Below are positions 5-13,160 of a stretch of 45,954 nt of DNA, piece after piece (within the stretch, counting starts at the first letter, position 1; every line of letters begins with the position of its first letter). The notes below the pieces were generated by a model. That model ran no database searches and was not told where the DNA came from. It saw only the letters and a list, made by a program, of their open reading frames with translations. A program made the position numbers and the translations under genes. Origin of the DNA: Candidatus Gottesmanbacteria bacterium (GTDB lineage Bacteria; Patescibacteriota; Microgenomatia; 2-02-FULL-39-11); contig JACPZE010000015.1 of NCBI GenBank assembly GCA_016195685.1, forward strand, positions 1 through 45,954. Reading direction: 5' to 3'.

Positions 5-1723
5 ATGTCAAATGAATCTTTAAAATGGCGAAGTAATCTTTTGACCGGCACTCCCGGTGGTCGCGATTGGGTAAAAAGGGCAGCGGCCCGGGCGATGCTG
101 AGGGCTGTAGATTTCAAAGATGAGGATTTCAGAAAACCGATAGTTACTGTAGCTTGCCCTTATACTAACGCTACTCCCTGTAATGATCATATTCAAAAAT
201 TAGGGGAAATAGTTTTTACTGAAGTGGAAAAACACGGCGGTAAACCTTTTATCTTCGGTACCCCAGTTGTCTCCGACGGGGAGTCTATGGGTACTACAGG
301 TATGAAATATTCTCTTGTTTCCAGAGAACTTATAGCAGATTGTATTGAAACTATGCACGAATCATACTCCGCAGATGGCATAATTACACTTTCAGGTTGC
401 GACAAAACTATTCCCGGAACACTCATGCCTCTTGCCCGCAATAACAGCATAGGACTTACTCTTTATGGTGGAAGTATTTTGCCGGGAATATATGAAAAAA
501 AAGATTTAACGATTGTCAGCACTTTTGAAGCGATCGGCGCGCATGCGGCAGGTAAGATCAACGACCGCGAATTTTACGAAATTGAATGCCATTCATGTCC
601 TGGAGCCGGAAGTTGTGGAGGTATGTTTACGGCAAATACGATGTCTTCTGCAATTGAAGCACTCGGTATGAGCATTCCCGGTTCATCTTCCAATTTAGCA
701 GTAGATAGGAATAATAAAGTTTCAAAAGATAAAAAAAATGATTGCATCAAATCAGTTGCGGCGCTTTTTAATCTATTGAAACTTAGGATAAGAGTAAGAG
801 ATATTATGACTAAGGAAGCTTTTGAAAATGCGATAATTGTAGTTTTAGCCCTAGGCGGATCAACTAATGCAGTCCTTCATTTATTGGCGTTGGCTCATGA
901 AGCACAGATAGATCTGAAACTTTCTGATTTTGAAAAAATTGCCAAAAAAGTGCCTTTGATAGGTAATTTCAAACCTTTTGGAAAATATGTAATGGAAAAT
1001 TTACACTCAATCGGTGGAGTACCTATGGTGATGAAGATGCTTTATGACGCAGATTTAATCAATGGAAAATGTCTCACGGTTACAGGAAAAACTGTTGAAC
1101 AGAATCTCAAAAATGCACCCAAAAGACCTAAAAATCAGGATATTATTTATAGCCTTGATGCGCCATTCGCTCCGCCGGAGCATCACCTAGTGATAATGCG
1201 GGGTAATTTAGCCCAAGATGGTGCTGTAATGAAATTAAGCGGTAAAGAAATCGATAAATATAAAGGGAGGGCAAAAGTGTTTGACAGGGAAGAAGATGCG
1301 CTTGAGGCAATACTTTCTGGAAAAATAAAAAAAGGAGATGTACTCGTAATTCGGTATGAGGGACCCAAAGGAGGACCTGGAATGCGAGAAATGTTGTCCC
1401 CATCATCTGCACTAATGGGATCGGGGTTAGGAAAAGATGTTGCTTTAATTACCGATGGAAGATTTTCCGGAGGTACTCACGGAATCATGGCAGGTCATAT
1501 CTCACCGGAAGCCCAAGTAGGCGGGAGATTGGCATTGGTTGCCGATGGTGATCAAATCTGCATAAATCTGGCAACGCGAAGAATTGATCTGTTGGTTTCA
1601 GAAAAAGAAATAGTAAGAAGGCAAAAAAAATGGAGAGTACCTGAAGAAAAATATAAGAGGGGAGTTTTGGCAAAATATTCAAAATTAGTAGGAAGTGCAT
1701 CATATGGAGCAGTTACTAGTTAA
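5..1723 (+). CDS. ilvD: Dihydroxy-acid dehydratase
   Basis: This enzyme dehydrates 2,3-dihydroxy-isovalerate and 2,3-dihydroxy-3-methylvalerate to the 2-oxo acids that precede valine/leucine and isoleucine. The 572-residue length is normal for the IlvD/Edd family. The three iron-sulfur ligands are visible: Cys59 in NATPCN, Cys132 in GCDKT and Cys204 in AGSCGGM. The C-terminal signatures [11 protein letters not shown] and [11 protein letters not shown] are also intact. The start ATG is four bases from the window edge, so the ribosome binding site and promoter cannot be seen. It is the first visible gene of a + strand operon and is separated from ilvB by a 92-base gap that holds a palindromic repeat. 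Identity is near certain; only the cluster type ([2Fe-2S] or [4Fe-4S]) is open. Confidence 0.97.
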
Positions 1724-1815: not shown

Positions 1816-3522
1816 ATGAAAACTAGACTTAAAGAAGGACAAAAAGTGCAAGGAGCAGATATAGTTTGTGAAATGCTGGTAAGACATGGTATTTCCGTGA
1901 TATTTGGTTATCCTGGGGGAGCAAACATTCCTATCTATGATGCTTTGTACAAATACCCCAAGCTTCATCATGTTTTGGTCAGACATGAACAGGGAGCAGC
2001 TCATGCGGCTGAAGGATATGCTTGGGCAACAGGAAGGCCGGGAGTATGTTTTACTACAAGCGGTCCTGGCGCTACCAATTTAGTTACTGGACTAGCTGAT
2101 GCTATGTTGGATAGCATTCCGATGGTTTGTATCACAGGGCAGGTTCCTTCACCTTTGATAGGAAGCGATGCTTTTCAGGAAACTGACGTATTAGGTGTCA
2201 CATTGCCGGTTACCAAACATAATTATCTGATTACCAAAACAGAAGATATTGCTCCTGCTTTGCACGAAGCATTTTATCTGGCTACACATGGCAGGCCGGG
2301 TCCTGTTCTTGTAGATATTGCCAAAGATGCACAAACAAATTTTGCTGAATTTCAAAGTCCTAAAGAAAGAGATTATTTAAAAAATAAAATCAAACATAAA
2401 GCAACGATAGAAGAAGTGGAGAAAATTGCTGAATTTCTAAATAATGCTGAAAAACCACTTATAGTCGCCGGACACGGTATGCTTCTAAGTGGAGACGGTA
2501 AAACACTTCTAGCAATTGCCCAAAAGCAGGATATTCCTATCACTCTAACGCAACTTGGACTTTCTACAATTCCTTCAACTCATAGGCTTTTTATGGGTAT
2601 GCCGGGTATGCATGGAAATGTAGCCGCAAATAGGGCTCCAAATAGGGCTGATGTACTTTTGGCCGTAGGTATGAGATTTCATGATAGGGTAACTGGTAAA
2701 GTATCTACGTATGCTCCTCAAGCAAAAATCATCCATATAGATATAGATCCTTCAGAAATAGGTAAAAATGTGAAACCTACTTTAGGCGTAGTGGGGGACG
2801 CGAAAATAGTTTTACAGCAAATTCTTCCAAAATTGAAAAAACTAAAAAGAGAAAGCTGGCTTGTTGAGTTGAAAAACTGGAAAAATGAAGAAAAAGAAAA
2901 GGTTTTCGATAAAGAACTGAATTCAACCAAACTTAAATCAGCTCAAGTAGTTGCCGAAATATCAAAACAGACAGAAGGTCTTGCTACAATTGTTGCCGAT
3001 GTAGGGCAAAATCAGATGTATGCGGCCCGTTATTCCACATTCAGAAAATACAACACACACTTCACTTCCGGTGGTTTGGGCACTATGGGATTTGCTGTTC
3101 CCGCAGGGATGGGCGCAAAGTTTGGCGATCCAAAAAGAGAAGTTTGGATAGTGGTTGGAGACGGTGGAATACAGATGACGATACAAGAACTGGCAACCAT
3201 TGTGCAAGAAAATTTAGAAGTGAAAATTGCTCTACTTAATAATAATTATCTAGGGATGGTGCGGCAATGGCAAGAACTTTTTTACAAAGGAAATTACTCG
3301 GCGGTATCTCTGAAAAATCCCAATTTCCAAAAATTGTGCGAAGGATTTGGAATAAATTCTATGAAAGCAGAGAACTTTAAACGTGCCCGTGAAGCTATTA
3401 AAATAGCCAGAAGGACAAAAGGGCCATTTTTGATTGAATTTGTAGTGGAGGCTGAGGAAAATGTATTTCCAATGATTCCGGCAGGAGCAGGAATCGATGA
3501 AATGATTGTTTCTAGAGAATAA
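1816..3522 (+). CDS. ilvB: Acetolactate synthase, large (catalytic) subunit
   Basis: This ThDP-dependent enzyme condenses pyruvate with pyruvate (valine/leucine) or with 2-oxobutyrate (isoleucine). The 568-residue length fits the family. The N-terminal ThDP domain has the catalytic glutamate Glu58 in RHEQGAAHAAEGYA. A central FAD/DHS-like domain follows, and the C-terminal domain carries the GDG...NNNYLG ThDP/Mg motif at about residues 448-480. The ATG at 1816 is used because the ATG at 1812 meets a stop after four codons. No clear Shine-Dalgarno is present; the start follows the palindromic repeat and an A-tract. The regulatory subunit gene begins one base after the stop. Confidence 0.97.
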   Translation: MKTRLKEGQKVQGADIVCEMLVRHGISVIFGYPGGANIPIYDALYKYPKLHHVLVRHEQGAAHAAEGYAWATGRPGVCFTTSGPGATNLVTGLADAMLDSIPMVCITGQVPSPLIGSDAFQETDVLGVTLPVTKHNYLITKTEDIAPALHEAFYLATHGRPGPVLVDIAKDAQTNFAEFQSPKERDYLKNKIKHKATIEEVEKIAEFLNNAEKPLIVAGHGMLLSGDGKTLLAIAQKQDIPITLTQLGLSTIPSTHRLFMGMPGMHGNVAANRAPNRADVLLAVGMRFHDRVTGKVSTYAPQAKIIHIDIDPSEIGKNVKPTLGVVGDAKIVLQQILPKLKKLKRESWLVELKNWKNEEKEKVFDKELNSTKLKSAQVVAEISKQTEGLATIVADVGQNQMYAARYSTFRKYNTHFTSGGLGTMGFAVPAGMGAKFGDPKREVWIVVGDGGIQMTIQELATIVQENLEVKIALLNNNYLGMVRQWQELFYKGNYSAVSLKNPNFQKLCEGFGINSMKAENFKRAREAIKIARRTKGPFLIEFVVEAEENVFPMIPAGAGIDEMIVSRE

Positions 3523-3523
3523 A

Positions 3524-4006
3524 ATGAATAAAGAATTGTCAAATATCATTATTTGGACTGAGAACAAACCGGGTGTATTTTTCCGGATACTTTGGCTATT
3601 CAGAAGAAAAATGTTTAATATCGAATCTGCCACAGTGGGGCATACAGAAATTCCCGGAATTACTAGATTTACAATCACAGTGACAGGGGATAAAGATCAG
3701 GTAAGAAATATGTGCAAGCAGGTTTATAAATTGATAAACGTAGTGAAAGTTGAGGATGTGTTAGATGAAAAGTTGGTATCCAGAGAATTAGCAATGATAA
3801 AAGTATCGACCAAAAATCGGGCAGAAAAATTGGAGATTTTAGAAGTAGTAAAACATTTCCGCGCCAGAGTAATCAATATGGCTTTGGACAAACTTATGAT
3901 AGAAATAACAGGTGGGGAAGAAAAAATAGATGCTTTTTATGAAAATATGAAGCAATTTAGAATATTAGAATTTGTCAGAACCGGAAGGACGGCTTTGTTT
4001 AAATGA
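3524..4006 (+). CDS. ilvN: Acetolactate synthase, small (regulatory) subunit
   Basis: This is the 160-residue regulatory partner of the large subunit encoded just upstream; the family confers valine feedback inhibition. An N-terminal ACT domain (about residues 1-75, ENKPGVFFRILWLFRRKMFN) and a second small-subunit domain (about 85-160) are both present. The start is taken as the ATG at 3524, one base after the ilvB stop; a TTG at 3506 in frame would add six residues that do not match the family. The stop overlaps the next gene by ATGA (4003-4006), which indicates translational coupling. Confidence 0.94.
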   Translation: MNKELSNIIIWTENKPGVFFRILWLFRRKMFNIESATVGHTEIPGITRFTITVTGDKDQVRNMCKQVYKLINVVKVEDVLDEKLVSRELAMIKVSTKNRAEKLEILEVVKHFRARVINMALDKLMIEITGGEEKIDAFYENMKQFRILEFVRTGRTALFK

Positions 4007-5877
4007 AAAACAATAATTTTTACTATTTACAATGTGTGTTGTGTAAAAGAAAAACTACAGAGAAAGAAACAGTTTCTGTGTGTTTATCTTGCAGTGGGCC
4101 GCTTGACGTGGTTTATGATTATGACGCTCTCAGACTAAAACTTAATACATATCTTCTGCGAAGCGCCCCACCGAAAACTATGAAGTATCTGGATTTTTAT
4201 CCACTGGCTCGAGATAGAGAATTGATTACTCTTGATGAAGGGGGTACAACGCTTCATAAAGCACGAAATCTTGCAAAAAAATTAGGTATAAAAAAACTAT
4301 TTATAAAAAATGAAGGACTCAATCCTACAGGAGCATTTAAAGACAGAGGGAGTTTTGTGGAAATAAATAAAGCAAAAGAATTAGGTTTCAAATCCGTGGT
4401 TGTTGCTTCTACAGGGAATATGGCAGCATCAGTTTCTGCATATTCTGCCCAGGCAGGATTAGCTTGTTATGTATTTGTACCGGAAAATACGCCACGTGCT
4501 AAATTAGCACAATCTCTTTCTTACGGAGCAAAAGTGATCCAAATAAGGGGAACATATTATGATGCAGCAAATTTAGCAGAAAAAACTTCAGAAAAATACG
4601 GGTTTTATCTTGCAGGCGATTATGTCTTTCGGGCAGAAGGGCAGAAATCATGTGGTTACGAACTGGCAGAACAGATGTGGAGGGAGGATATAGATTGGAT
4701 TATAGTGCCGGTAGGTATGGGAACTAATTTGTCGGCAATTTTTAAAGGTCTCTGGGAATATTATAAAATGGGACTTATAGATAAATTACCAAGAATGGTT
4801 GCTGTACAAGCCCAAAATTGTAATTCGATTAAAAAAGTAAGCGGAGAATATAAAGTAACATTTATTGAAAAACCAAATACAATATGTTCTGCTATATCAT
4901 GCAATAAGCCCTTGGATGGCTCCAAAGTGATTCGGGCACTGAAAGAAACTAAAGGAGAGATTGTTACTGCTTCTGACGACGAGACTTTAATTATGCAGCA
5001 GTTACTTTCCCACTCGGAAGCCCTTTATGTCGAGCCATCGGCAGCTACAACAATAGTAGCCTTACAGAAACTTCTTAGAAAGGGAGTAATTAAAGCCTTG
5101 GAAACTGTAGTGTGTGTAGCAACCGGTATAGGGTTGAAGGATCCGGCTGCGACGCTAAAAGTTTTATCAGATCCACCGACAATTGAACCGGATATAAATG
5201 AAGTAACACGGGTTATAAGTGGTAAATTATTTTCCATAAGGGCACAGGGCGTAAAGGAAAAGGAAAAAATTATCTTCAACCGTGTTCCGACTGATAAAGA
5301 AGTAAAGAAAATAGTAAAAAAAGAATTTACGATTGATCTTTCAGCCGTCAATTTGAAATTAGTAGCAGGTGATATAAAAGATTTCATCAAGAATAAAGGG
5401 AAGACGATAGCCAAAGCAGACTTACAATCTATACTGGAAAATGTTATTCAACAGGAATCTCATAAAAATTATTTGGAGCTGATAGATTTTCACATCGAAG
5501 ATTCAAAACAAAAAAGACCAACCGCAAGGGTAGAAGTAAAACTCAATGGTAAAACTTATATGTCAGAGGGTGAAGGCGTAGGACCTGTAGATGCAGCTAT
5601 CAATGCAATAAAAAAAATTATTGCAAAATATGATGGTATTGATTTCAATATTGCAGATTTCAACGTAGAAATTCCTACAACTGGTTCTGATGCAACTGTC
5701 GAGGTGACGATGGTGCTTCTGGAAAAAAGAGGAAATCAAGTAGTGGAAAAAGGTACTTCACCTGATATAATCGTAGCATCGATGAATGCATTTGTAGCAG
5801 GATACAATGAATTAATTTATCAATTTAAAAACCCGACGTCGTCTAAATCACGAGGGTTAGGGAGGAAAAAATTATGA
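4003..5877 (+). CDS. Threonine synthase/dehydratase-like PLP enzyme fused to a LeuA-type allosteric domain
   Basis: This 624-residue two-part protein starts with a zinc-ribbon-like segment (Cys11, Cys14, Cys27, Cys30) and a fold-type II PLP domain of the threonine synthase family. The Schiff-base Lys113 lies in NPTGAFKDRG, with the STGNMAAS loop at 136-143 and the phosphate-binding VGMGTN at 237-242. The PLP part ends near residue 390. Residues about 490-608 match the alpha-isopropylmalate synthase dimer/allosteric domain, with GEGVGPVDAAINAIKK and TGSDATVEVTM followed by GTSPDIIVASMNAF. The split leuA in this window has the equivalent [15 protein letters not shown]. Its place between ilvN and ridA, with no separate ilvA visible, suggests it makes 2-oxobutyrate from threonine with isoleucine feedback. 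A threonine synthase role is the alternative. Confidence 0.85.
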   Translation: MKNNNFYYLQCVLCKRKTTEKETVSVCLSCSGPLDVVYDYDALRLKLNTYLLRSAPPKTMKYLDFYPLARDRELITLDEGGTTLHKARNLAKKLGIKKLFIKNEGLNPTGAFKDRGSFVEINKAKELGFKSVVVASTGNMAASVSAYSAQAGLACYVFVPENTPRAKLAQSLSYGAKVIQIRGTYYDAANLAEKTSEKYGFYLAGDYVFRAEGQKSCGYELAEQMWREDIDWIIVPVGMGTNLSAIFKGLWEYYKMGLIDKLPRMVAVQAQNCNSIKKVSGEYKVTFIEKPNTICSAISCNKPLDGSKVIRALKETKGEIVTASDDETLIMQQLLSHSEALYVEPSAATTIVALQKLLRKGVIKALETVVCVATGIGLKDPAATLKVLSDPPTIEPDINEVTRVISGKLFSIRAQGVKEKEKIIFNRVPTDKEVKKIVKKEFTIDLSAVNLKLVAGDIKDFIKNKGKTIAKADLQSILENVIQQESHKNYLELIDFHIEDSKQKRPTARVEVKLNGKTYMSEGEGVGPVDAAINAIKKIIAKYDGIDFNIADFNVEIPTTGSDATVEVTMVLLEKRGNQVVEKGTSPDIIVASMNAFVAGYNELIYQFKNPTSSKSRGLGRKKL

Positions 5878-6302
5878 AAGAAGAAGTTAAAACAAAAAAA
5901 GCACCAGAAGCAATTGGTCCATACTCACAAGCGGTTAAATTCGGTAATCTCGTTTTTTGTGCAGGTCAGATAGGTCTAGATCCAAAAACCAACAATTTAG
6001 TTGAGGGGATAAAGAAACAAACCAAACAAGCTTTTGCAAATATCAAAAATGTGCTGGAGAGTGTAGCCTCATCTCTAGAGAAAGTATTAAAAATGAATGT
6101 GTATCTTAAAAATATGGATGATTTTGCCGTAATGAATGAAATTTATGCAACATATTATAAAAAACCCTATCCGGCGCGGGCTACCGTTGAAGTAGCAAGA
6201 CTTCCCAAAGGAGCTCTTATAGAGATTGAATGCGTTGCATATATCCAAAAAGAAGATGAGGAAAATTGTTGCGGTGGAGGATGTGGAGGCGACTGCCGTT
6301 AA
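5874..6302 (+). CDS. ridA: RidA family enamine/imine deaminase with a Cys-Gly tail
   Basis: RidA proteins hydrolyse the reactive enamine/imine intermediates released by PLP dehydratases such as threonine dehydratase, giving 2-oxo acids. The 142-residue protein has the family core (EAIGPYSQAVKFGNLVFCAG) and the catalytic arginine (Arg102 in PARATVEVARLPKGALIEIE). The start overlaps the PLP fusion gene by ATGA and has a strong GGGAGG ribosome binding site. Directly following the PLP enzyme supports a dehydratase role for that enzyme. The C-terminus is odd: after the usual end it carries NCCGGGCGGDCR with four cysteines (132, 133, 137, 141), possibly a metal site. Confidence 0.93.
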   Translation: MKEEVKTKKAPEAIGPYSQAVKFGNLVFCAGQIGLDPKTNNLVEGIKKQTKQAFANIKNVLESVASSLEKVLKMNVYLKNMDDFAVMNEIYATYYKKPYPARATVEVARLPKGALIEIECVAYIQKEDEENCCGGGCGGDCR

Positions 6303-6304
6303 AT

Positions 6305-7228
6305 ATGAAAAATCTTGAATATTTACCATACGCATTTTTTGAAAGGAAAATAGTGCCTACAGAGGAAGCAAAAGTGAGTATTATGACCAATGCTCTTCAG
6401 TACGGAACTGGGGTTATAGGCGGTATAAGATGTTATTTGGCAGGTGATAAAAAAACGATGAATATATTCCGTCTGGTGGATCATTATAAGAGGTTTCTAA
6501 ATTCATTAAAAATCTTGAATGTTTCTATACCGTTTAACCATCAAAAATTAGTTGAGTTAACTCTTGCTTTGGCCAGAAAAAATAAACCACAGACAGATTC
6601 TTATATTCGTCCTTTCGCATATGCAGCCAATATCGGTTTATCACCGGATTTAAGCCACGCTGAAATGGATTTAGCAATTTATATGATTCCATTGGGTGAA
6701 TATTTACCTCTAAGTCGAGGATTAAAATTAGCCGTTTCCAACTGGATGAGGATTACAGACAGGATGATTCCTGCCAGAGCAAAAATATCAGGAGGATATA
6801 TCAATTCCGCCATGGCCAGGGGAGATGTGGCAAGACTGGGTTTTGATGATGCCTTGATGATGGATGATAGAGGGCATATCACTGAAGCATCCGCAGCAAA
6901 TATTTTTATCGTCAGAGACGGAGTACTTATTACTCCATCCAAATACTCAGATGTTTTGGAGGGAATGACCAGAAGGACTATAATCGAACTTGCATCTGAT
7001 TTAAAGATAAAAGTAGAGGAAAGAGAAATAGATAGATCAGAAATATATGTAGCAGATGAAGTGTTTTTGAGTGGAACCGGCGTTCAGGTGGCATGGATAG
7101 ATGAAGTAGATGGGAGAAAAATAGGCAAAGGCAGAATCGGCCCTATCACACATAAATTGCAAAAATTATTCTTTGATATTGTGCGAGGTAAAGAAAAAAA
7201 ATATTCACATTGGCTAACAAAAGTTTAA
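6305..7228 (+). CDS. ilvE: Branched-chain amino acid aminotransferase
   Basis: This fold-type IV PLP transaminase carries out the last step to valine, isoleucine and leucine. The chosen ATG at 6305, two bases after the ridA stop, gives 307 residues starting MKNLEYLPYAFFERKIVP; an upstream in-frame start would lie inside ridA and adds only an arginine-rich tail. Family signatures are present: the PLP lysine in PARAKISGGYINSAMARGD, then GHITEASAANIF and FLSGTGVQV. Context in the ilv operon fits IlvE rather than D-amino acid transaminase or aminodeoxychorismate lyase from the same fold. Confidence 0.93.
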   Translation: MKNLEYLPYAFFERKIVPTEEAKVSIMTNALQYGTGVIGGIRCYLAGDKKTMNIFRLVDHYKRFLNSLKILNVSIPFNHQKLVELTLALARKNKPQTDSYIRPFAYAANIGLSPDLSHAEMDLAIYMIPLGEYLPLSRGLKLAVSNWMRITDRMIPARAKISGGYINSAMARGDVARLGFDDALMMDDRGHITEASAANIFIVRDGVLITPSKYSDVLEGMTRRTIIELASDLKIKVEEREIDRSEIYVADEVFLSGTGVQVAWIDEVDGRKIGKGRIGPITHKLQKLFFDIVRGKEKKYSHWLTKV

Positions 7229-7256: not shown

Positions 7257-8315
7257 ATGGCGATCATAAATTTCGGAGGAGTGAAAGAAAAAGTAGTGAC
7301 GCGGGAGGAATTTCCACTGTCGAAGGCAAGGGAAGTTTTGAAAAATGAAATTTTGGCAATACTTGGTTACGGAGTTCAAGGACCAGGCCAAGGATTGAAC
7401 ATGAGAGATAATGGAACCAGGGTAATTGTAGGACAACGCAAAGGATCTGCTACTTGGGATAAGGCAGTGAAAGACGGATGGGTACCGGGTAAAACCCTTT
7501 TTGAATTGGAAGAAGCTGCAAACAAAGGAACAATTATTCAATATTTGTTATCAGATGCAGGCCAGAAAACTTTTTGGCCGACACTGAAGAAATATTTGAC
7601 TGCAGGGAAAACGCTTTGTTTTTCACATGGATTTTCCATCACTTATAAAAATTTGACTGGAGTGATTCCGCCGAAAAATATAGATGTGGTACTTATCGCT
7701 CCAAAAGGGTCTGGGTTATCAGTAAGACGAAATTTTTTAGAAGGAAGCGGAATCAATAGTAGTTATGCTGTATTTCAAAATTCCAGCGGACATGCAGAAG
7801 AAAAAGCGTTGGCTATGGGTATAGCGATAGGTTCAGGTTTCCTCTTTCCTACTACTTTTGAAAACGAAGTGTTTAGCGATTTGACAGGAGAAAGAGGAGT
7901 CCTTCTAGGAGCTATCGAGGGCATATTTGAAGCTCAATACAATGAACTTAGAAAACACGGCCACGCGCCATCAGAAGCATATAATGAAACAGTTGAGGAA
8001 TTTACTCAGAGTCTTATCAAACTTGTTGCTGAAAAAGGCATGGATTGGATGTATGCGAATTGTTCAACTACAGCACAGCGTGGCGCTTTGGATTGGAAAG
8101 ATAAATTCCGAAAGGCGGTAGAACCTGTATTTAGCCAGCTTTATAAAAAAGTAGCAGATGGTACAGAGGCAAAAAGAGTGCTTGAAAAAAATAGTCAGCC
8201 AAATTACCGAGAAGAGTTGGATAAAGAGCTGGCAGAGATGGCTAATTCTGAGATGTGGAAAACTGGAGACAAAGTACGAGACTTGCGTCCGGAGAATTGG
8301 AAAAGACAAGCATAG
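7257..8315 (+). CDS. ilvC: Ketol-acid reductoisomerase
   Basis: This NADPH- and Mg-dependent enzyme converts acetolactate and acetohydroxybutyrate to the dihydroxy acids used by IlvD. The 352-residue protein has the Rossmann motif GYGVQGPGQG (37-46), followed by NMRDNG and a knotted all-alpha C-terminal region with CSTTAQRGALDW. The segments DGWVPGKTLF, YLLSDAGQ and VRDLRPENW are typical of the KARI subtype known from Bacteroidetes and fungi rather than the common short class I form, which hints at transfer. A clear AAGGAG site sits 28 bases or fewer after ilvE. The stop codon overlaps the GTG start of the next gene. Confidence 0.96.
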   Translation: MAIINFGGVKEKVVTREEFPLSKAREVLKNEILAILGYGVQGPGQGLNMRDNGTRVIVGQRKGSATWDKAVKDGWVPGKTLFELEEAANKGTIIQYLLSDAGQKTFWPTLKKYLTAGKTLCFSHGFSITYKNLTGVIPPKNIDVVLIAPKGSGLSVRRNFLEGSGINSSYAVFQNSSGHAEEKALAMGIAIGSGFLFPTTFENEVFSDLTGERGVLLGAIEGIFEAQYNELRKHGHAPSEAYNETVEEFTQSLIKLVAEKGMDWMYANCSTTAQRGALDWKDKFRKAVEPVFSQLYKKVADGTEAKRVLEKNSQPNYREELDKELAEMANSEMWKTGDKVRDLRPENWKRQA

Positions 8316-12903: not shown

Positions 12904-13160
12904 ATAAACTTATTTAAGGCATCAATATAAGCAAGTGTTGCTGCTACAATAGTATCCGTATTGATCCCGGTACCATAAAATTCTTTACCGTTATGTTGTA
13001 CTGCTACGTGTACTTTGGCCATCGCGTTTGAACCTACTGTGGTTGCCTGGATGAGAAATTGAGTAAGCTTATATTTCCCCCCGACACAGTTATCGATAGC
13101 TTTAAAACTTGCGTCAATCGGTCCGTCTCCTATTCCCACTGATTCTTTATTTTTTACCAT
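12900..13160 (-). CDS. LeuA C-terminal allosteric domain, separate frame
   Basis: An 86-residue frame begins at an ATG inside the end of the main leuA frame and is shifted by one base. It encodes the rest of the LeuA dimer domain: [15 protein letters not shown], then [14 protein letters not shown] and [19 protein letters not shown]. The first three residues (MVK) are probably not native; homology begins at about NKESVG. Its stop overlaps the leuC start by ATGA, as an intact leuA would. It may be made by re-initiation or by frameshifting. Confidence 0.75.

Follow-up and report, generated by a model that had tools for sequence, protein, structure and literature searches.

A predicted threonine dehydratase of Patescibacteria that joins a threonine-synthase-lineage catalytic domain to a LeuA-type regulatory domain

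In the ilv operon of a Candidatus Gottesmanbacteria genome, the slot that threonine dehydratase (IlvA) occupies in sister families is filled by a single protein that joins a threonine-synthase-like PLP enzyme to a LeuA-type allosteric domain. The host belongs to a group of tiny uncultured bacteria. We consider it likely that this fusion is an L-threonine dehydratase acting in the IlvA role, at the first committed step toward isoleucine, and that a branched-chain amino acid, with isoleucine the best candidate, controls it by feedback. It would probably match IlvA in function, although neither of its modules is of the IlvA type.

RESULTS

Architecture and operon context of the fusion gene

The window, that is, the whole stretch of DNA analyzed (45,954 nucleotides), contains the gene order ilvD, ilvB, ilvN, fusion, ridA, ilvE, ilvC (Table 1), in agreement with a preliminary description of the sequence that had placed the fusion in an ilv operon next to ridA. 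The fusion gene overlaps each of its neighbors by 4 nucleotides, its start (4003) with the end of ilvN (4006) and its stop (5877) with the start of ridA (5874). The true start of ilvN is probably the ATG at 3524. Genes of the leuABCD type come after the ilv operon on the opposite strand.

TABLE 1. Positions in the window of the fusion gene, its domains and its operon partners
Feature	Position	Strand	Basis or remark
ilvD	5..1723	+	Operon partner kept in relatives
ilvB	1816..3522	+	Operon partner kept in relatives
ilvN (acetolactate synthase small subunit, ACT + ALS_ss_C)	3506..4006	+	Pfam, sequence
Fusion gene (threonine-synthase-like PLP enzyme + LeuA-type allosteric domain)	4003..5877	+	624 aa, ATG to stop, uninterrupted
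N-terminal Cys4 zinc-ribbon-like segment, residues 1-60, C11xxC14...C27xxC30	4003..4182	+	Sequence
PALP catalytic domain, residues 75-375	4225..5127	+	K113, STGNMAAS, GDY-x-F-R-x-EGQKS, G-x-GT
LeuA-like linker subdomain, residues 405-468	5215..5406	+	IPMS HMM matches; alignment with the LeuA subdomain
LeuA_dimer regulatory domain PF08502, residues 469-604	5407..5814	+	Pfam
ridA (enamine/imine deaminase)	5874..6302	+	PF01042, 144 bits
ilvE (branched-chain aminotransferase)	6305..7228	+	Operon partner kept in relatives
ilvC	7257..8315	+	PF01450

The two domain families that had been expected in one chain, PF00291 and PF08502, are both found there by Pfam. The first (E = 2.3e-71) identifies the catalytic part as a fold-type II PLP enzyme. 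The second (E = 6.2e-29; 101 bits against a cutoff of 24.9; model positions 2-130 of 131) is far above chance; a LeuA-type domain had been proposed at about residues 490-608, and the domain is indeed present, with an earlier start at residue 469. The PLP enzyme is complete, as claimed: the PLP lysine, Lys113, lies within FKDRG, the loop S136-TGNMAAS-143 is present, and both are invariant in 9 family members and in a set of 14 that includes distant ones. The four cysteines of the zinc-ribbon-like segment are invariant in the 9 family members and are not kept in the distant L133. NCBIfam models for isopropylmalate synthase (IPMS) begin to match at residue 419, so that the LeuA-like linker apparently came along with the sensor. 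An AlphaFold2 model based on a 29-row alignment (mean pLDDT, 82.8) shows strand-strand-strand-helix repeats at residues 491-609; it superseded a model from 9 sequences, which was too weak (pLDDT 67). The best Foldseek matches in the PDB are threonine synthases (2zsj, TMt 0.84).

Conservation across the 14 fusions is 50-69% in the PALP domain and 40-69% in LeuA_dimer, with a more variable linker. This pattern bears on whether the C-terminal domain could be a dead or purely structural add-on that binds no ligand. LeuA_dimer also serves dimerization, which such an add-on would retain, but G525, G527, D530, A531, D552, V555, I557 and S586-P587-D588 are invariant in the 14 aligned homologues, down to 40% identity, and we regard a ligand-free domain as improbable.

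Distribution of the fusion

Of 15 genomes sampled from the host family (Gottesmanbacteria-like), 10 have the architecture, against 0 of 359 others in a class-wide sample. Eight named relatives (7 Candidatus Gottesmanbacteria, 1 Patescibacteria) carry it at 58-66% identity, always within an ilv operon. One copy (L013, genome G119) is broken by a frameshift and another (L023, G041) has one reported internal TGA, although L103 shows the open reading frame of this copy intact, with 624 aa. The confinement to one family that the class-wide search had suggested was overturned by a profile of the C-terminal region, which recovered from 380 genomes of the phylum 5 further full fusions, from four families that do not belong to the class. 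These distant fusions have 43-49% identity, with PF00291 and PF08502 both above cutoff, and four of them (L147, L148, L149, L151) lie within ilv operons. The fifth (L150, in G391) is the sole fusion without a visible ilv operon; it is near a contig end, with only ridA adjoining. Because the same architecture recurs in many independent genomes, we ruled out an assembly chimera or a chance match. None of 72,556 plasmid records had a match over 80% of the fusion query.

The IlvA slot and other routes to 2-oxobutyrate

Within the class, ilvC is present in 34 of 374 genomes, and 14 ilvC loci from outside the host family were taken for comparison of the IlvA slot. Half of these loci (7) encode a canonical, HMM-confirmed IlvA of 414-415 aa (PF00291 plus PF00585; PRK08639, 560-630 bits) among ilvD, ilvC and ridA. 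Four others (L118, L125, L126, L128) have an IlvA-like open reading frame, recognized by BLAST and start sequence only and cut at the end of the fetched stretch at L118, and the remaining three (L119, L120, L122) have no IlvA in the stretch examined. In the host family, the slot is filled by the fusion. Pfam found PF08502 in it and no ACT-like PF00585, as anticipated for a threonine-consuming enzyme in which a LeuA-type domain replaces the ACT-like one. IlvA models score at most 100 bits against the catalytic domain, with cutoffs of about 380-800 (TIGR01127, 99.9 bits against 378.75; TIGR01124, 71.3 bits against 411.3). Adjacency to ridA alone is weak evidence, since two fragmented assemblies of the host family (G109, G130) keep ridA-ilvE-ilvC with neither the fusion nor an IlvA. 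In G158, of the same family, the contig shows ilvC-ilvD only.

A separate IlvA elsewhere in the host genome, which the preliminary description had named as part of the evidence that would refute its reading, was not found; the genome has only two PALP proteins, the fusion and one of 286 aa. It also has no CimA, its HMGL-like proteins being LeuA and one distant protein, and the fusion is the sole candidate for 2-oxobutyrate supply, positioned within the ilv operon. The one PALP protein found in G447 (99% complete) is the fusion.

These observations also bear on the idea that the fusion is a serine dehydratase or other PLP beta-eliminase, linked to ilv for pyruvate supply or amino-acid breakdown. 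RidA also acts on 2-aminoacrylate (PMC9127364), and related PALPs without the sensor, which in other Microgenomates families immediately follow a histidine-ammonia-lyase-type gene, suggest general amino-acid deamination. The slot, however, is that of IlvA in sister families, no other 2-oxobutyrate route was seen, and an allosteric domain of the branched-chain amino acid type better suits a committed biosynthetic step, so that we think a beta-eliminase of this kind very unlikely.

The second host PALP (L002, 1483-2343) is divergent and threonine-synthase-like and lies between Mur-ligase-like and ATP-grasp-like genes. Short PALPs resembling it are found throughout the host family.

The catalytic domain compared with threonine synthase

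By HMM name, the catalytic domain is a threonine synthase: TIGR00260 scores 222.8 bits, above its cutoff of 167.1, and PRK08197 scores 284.8 bits, slightly below its cutoff of 303. With threonine synthases as the best matches in sequence and in fold, the fusion could be a true threonine synthase that makes threonine from O-phosphohomoserine and is tuned by a downstream branched-chain amino acid. Several lines of evidence stand against this. In the PALP tree, the fusions form one clade (100/99) outside the true threonine synthase clade (100/97), which took in pathway-linked ThrCs, and IlvA is far away. Judged by sequence, then, the catalytic domain is of threonine-synthase lineage, in a clade of its own outside the true threonine synthases and far from IlvA. 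The earlier proposal that the sensor module alone had been swapped does not hold, as the catalytic domain too differs from IlvA and the IlvAs of the class are another protein.

The motifs differ as well. N-S-x-N-x-x-R-x-EGQKT and GN[A/L]GN occur in all five of the solved threonine synthases compared and in the pathway-linked ThrCs, whereas all 14 aligned fusions have GDY-x-F-R-x-EGQKS and G-x-GT, with N-S-x-N replaced by GDY. We take N154, S155 and R160 of Thermus threonine synthase, a numbering that agrees with the sequence of that enzyme, to contact the substrate phosphate; at these positions, the fusions keep the Arg and lose the Asn-Ser.

Genome content points the same way. Homoserine dehydrogenase (PF00742) was found neither in the host (93% complete) nor in four further genomes that carry the fusion (G023, G058, G072, G091), all at least 92% complete. 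No homoserine kinase was found among the five GHMP kinases of the host; judged by sequence and context, three look like a mevalonate-type cluster, one like a galactokinase, and one is pantoate-kinase-like. Relatives that do have the pathway have, in addition to the fusion, a separate ThrC beside hom/asd (L100, L101, L104); G041, G119 and G082 contain aspartate-to-threonine clusters with their own ThrC and still keep the fusion in ilv. G168 has lysC-hom-asd and no adjoining ThrC. The fusion itself is linked to ilv and not to thr genes. On the strength of the missing homoserine pathway, the separate ThrC of relatives and the lost motif, we rejected threonine synthase as the main function, and we assign the regulated threonine synthase as a whole a low probability.

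The ligand of the sensor domain

A sequence comparison of the fusion sensor with the PDB yielded only the regulatory domain of citramalate synthase from Leptospira (LiCMS; 3F6G/3F6H), an enzyme listed as isoleucine-regulated (PMC10464499); for a genuine LeuA C-domain, phmmer found no match in the PDB. All 14 fusions contain D-[FY]-x-V-x-I (D552, V555, I557), which in the alignment is common to citramalate synthases and is not a feature of LeuA. LiCMS carries this stretch, as does L135, a Leptospira-type CimA homologue that scores 642 bits, below the TIGR00977 cutoff of 950; L144, a TIGR00977 CimA (657 bits), agrees with it in the V and the I. Where the fusions have I557, 17 LeuA domains have mostly A, with S in two. 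Set against this, the sensor as a whole scores 86 bits with IPMS models against 46 and 32 with citramalate-synthase models, compared with 134 bits against 21 and none for a genuine LeuA. In the C-domain tree, the LeuA domains form their own clade (97/91), from which the fusion domain is excluded, and the fusion sensor does not group with the citramalate synthases, near which resolution is weak; the ligand assignment does not rest on this tree.

A threonine dehydratase that senses leucine or valine, and thereby balances one pathway against another, has to be weighed against isoleucine sensing. The domain family is best known from the leucine-inhibited isopropylmalate synthase, the IPMS HMMs score highest on the sensor, and leu genes are close by in many relatives. 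On the other side, G023, which is 100% complete and has the fusion and ilv genes, has no LeuA or other HMGL-like protein, D-[FY]-x-V-x-I matches the citramalate synthases and not LeuA, and the direct end product of the step is isoleucine. We think sensing of leucine or valine unlikely. Isoleucine is favored over leucine because of the CimA-like stretch, the LiCMS match and the absence of LeuA from G023, and we consider it the most likely ligand, with moderate confidence.

Two observations concern leuA itself. The leuA gene of the window (minus strand) has a six-A run and then TAA at 13147-13158, which stops the frame after 417 aa; the remainder of its LeuA_dimer domain lies in another frame, reaching about 12900. 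As relatives have an intact LeuA of about 500 aa, the split would be a sequencing or assembly error, a recent mutation or slippage. In three genomes (L083, L085 and L086, from G138, G158 and G168), the LeuA open reading frames have only 382-395 aa and apparently stop short of the allosteric domain; the fusion may then be the only remaining carrier of LeuA_dimer in G168.

DISCUSSION

In the mechanism that we propose, the catalytic domain of threonine-synthase lineage would use PLP to convert threonine to 2-aminocrotonate, giving 2-oxobutyrate and ammonia. RidA, the product of the adjoining gene, would finish the hydrolysis of the enamine, in keeping with its known chemistry (PMC9127364), and IlvBN, IlvC, IlvD and IlvE would take 2-oxobutyrate on to isoleucine. 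The C-terminal LeuA-type domain, together with the linker, would dimerize and bind a branched-chain amino acid, with isoleucine the likeliest, at the dimer interface. The ligand-bound sensor would then pass feedback inhibition to the catalytic domain, a direction of regulation predicted by analogy with CimA and with LeuA, for which the loop logic of regulation is described in the Mycobacterium abscessus enzyme (PMC11057210). In fusion genomes without a threonine pathway, we assume that threonine is supplied by uptake.

The fusion resembles IlvA (TIGR01124/TIGR02079/PRK08639, EC 4.3.1.19) in operon slot and neighbors, including ridA, in its PLP fold-type II, in having a C-terminal allosteric domain and in the presumed step. 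It differs in the lineage of its catalytic domain and in its regulator, PF08502 in place of the ACT-like PF00585 of IlvA. ThrC (TIGR00260; PRK08197; PDB 2zsj, 2d1f, 1uim, 6cgq) is the nearest relative in sequence and fold for residues 61-405, and the zinc-ribbon-like N-terminal segment is as in PRK08197-type proteins; unlike ThrC, however, the fusion lacks N-S-x-N and GNxGN, is linked to ilv rather than thr genes, has a regulatory domain and coexists with a true ThrC. With CimA (TIGR00977; Leptospira CimA, PDB 3F6G/3F6H), it shares the kind of regulatory domain, D-[FY]-x-V-x-I and, as predicted for the fusion, feedback from isoleucine at the step that opens the way to 2-oxobutyrate, whereas the catalytic domain of CimA is an HMGL TIM barrel with other chemistry. 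With LeuA (TIGR00973), it shares the LeuA_dimer domain and part of the linker subdomain, without the TIM barrel. The bifunctional ThrC of Microcystis aeruginosa shows that a protein of threonine-synthase fold can deaminate threonine (PMC12172450), an activity that is only predicted for the fusion; that enzyme is still primarily a threonine synthase, and no LeuA-type domain is reported for it.

On balance, we favor the view that, on one or more occasions, Patescibacteria built a second allosteric threonine dehydratase, independent of IlvA, from threonine-synthase-derived catalysis and an isoleucine-sensing domain of the isopropylmalate/citramalate-synthase kind. Such an enzyme would have converged with IlvA on the step, the place in the operon and the feedback logic, but its catalytic lineage and its sensor fold would both be different. 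As the preliminary description had supposed, no account of a PF00291-PF08502 fusion was found in the literature searched, which mostly lay outside subscription papers and included no proteome-wide survey of architectures; a survey of archaeal fusions names a cysH-thrC fusion only (PMC11237513).

Isoleucine feedback on threonine dehydratase was among the first allosteric controls described. If our reading is correct, its natural rebuilding from non-homologous parts offers a clean test of the portability of allosteric modules, because one sensor would then serve both a TIM-barrel synthase and a fold-type II PLP enzyme. Automatic annotation would be corrected as well: HMMs call the fusion proteins threonine synthase, a name that would falsely suggest threonine synthesis and isoleucine auxotrophy in many Patescibacteria.

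A few other genes deserve mention. A small P-loop kinase-like gene adjoins ThrC in three genomes (L100, 7741-8361; L101, 8536-9261; L121, 3491-4129), with a weak AAA_33 match and no NCBIfam match; in L101, it separates asd from ThrC, and no GHMP thrB adjoins it. We regard it as a candidate non-homologous homoserine kinase. In the other Microgenomates families (L095, L096, L097, L098, L099), the PALP without the sensor that directly follows the histidine-ammonia-lyase-type gene is threonine-synthase-like and of the GDY type, and in L098 the pair is followed by ridA; this conserved gene pair possibly has a role in amino-acid breakdown. Finally, two haloarchaeal plasmid genes annotated thrC (L145, 6001-7260; L146, 5977-7236), near amidohydrolase genes, match the catalytic part of the fusion only, at about 37% identity. 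They have neither GDY nor NS-x-N and carry a third version of the motif, AAINPFQVEGKRT; perhaps they are not threonine synthases.
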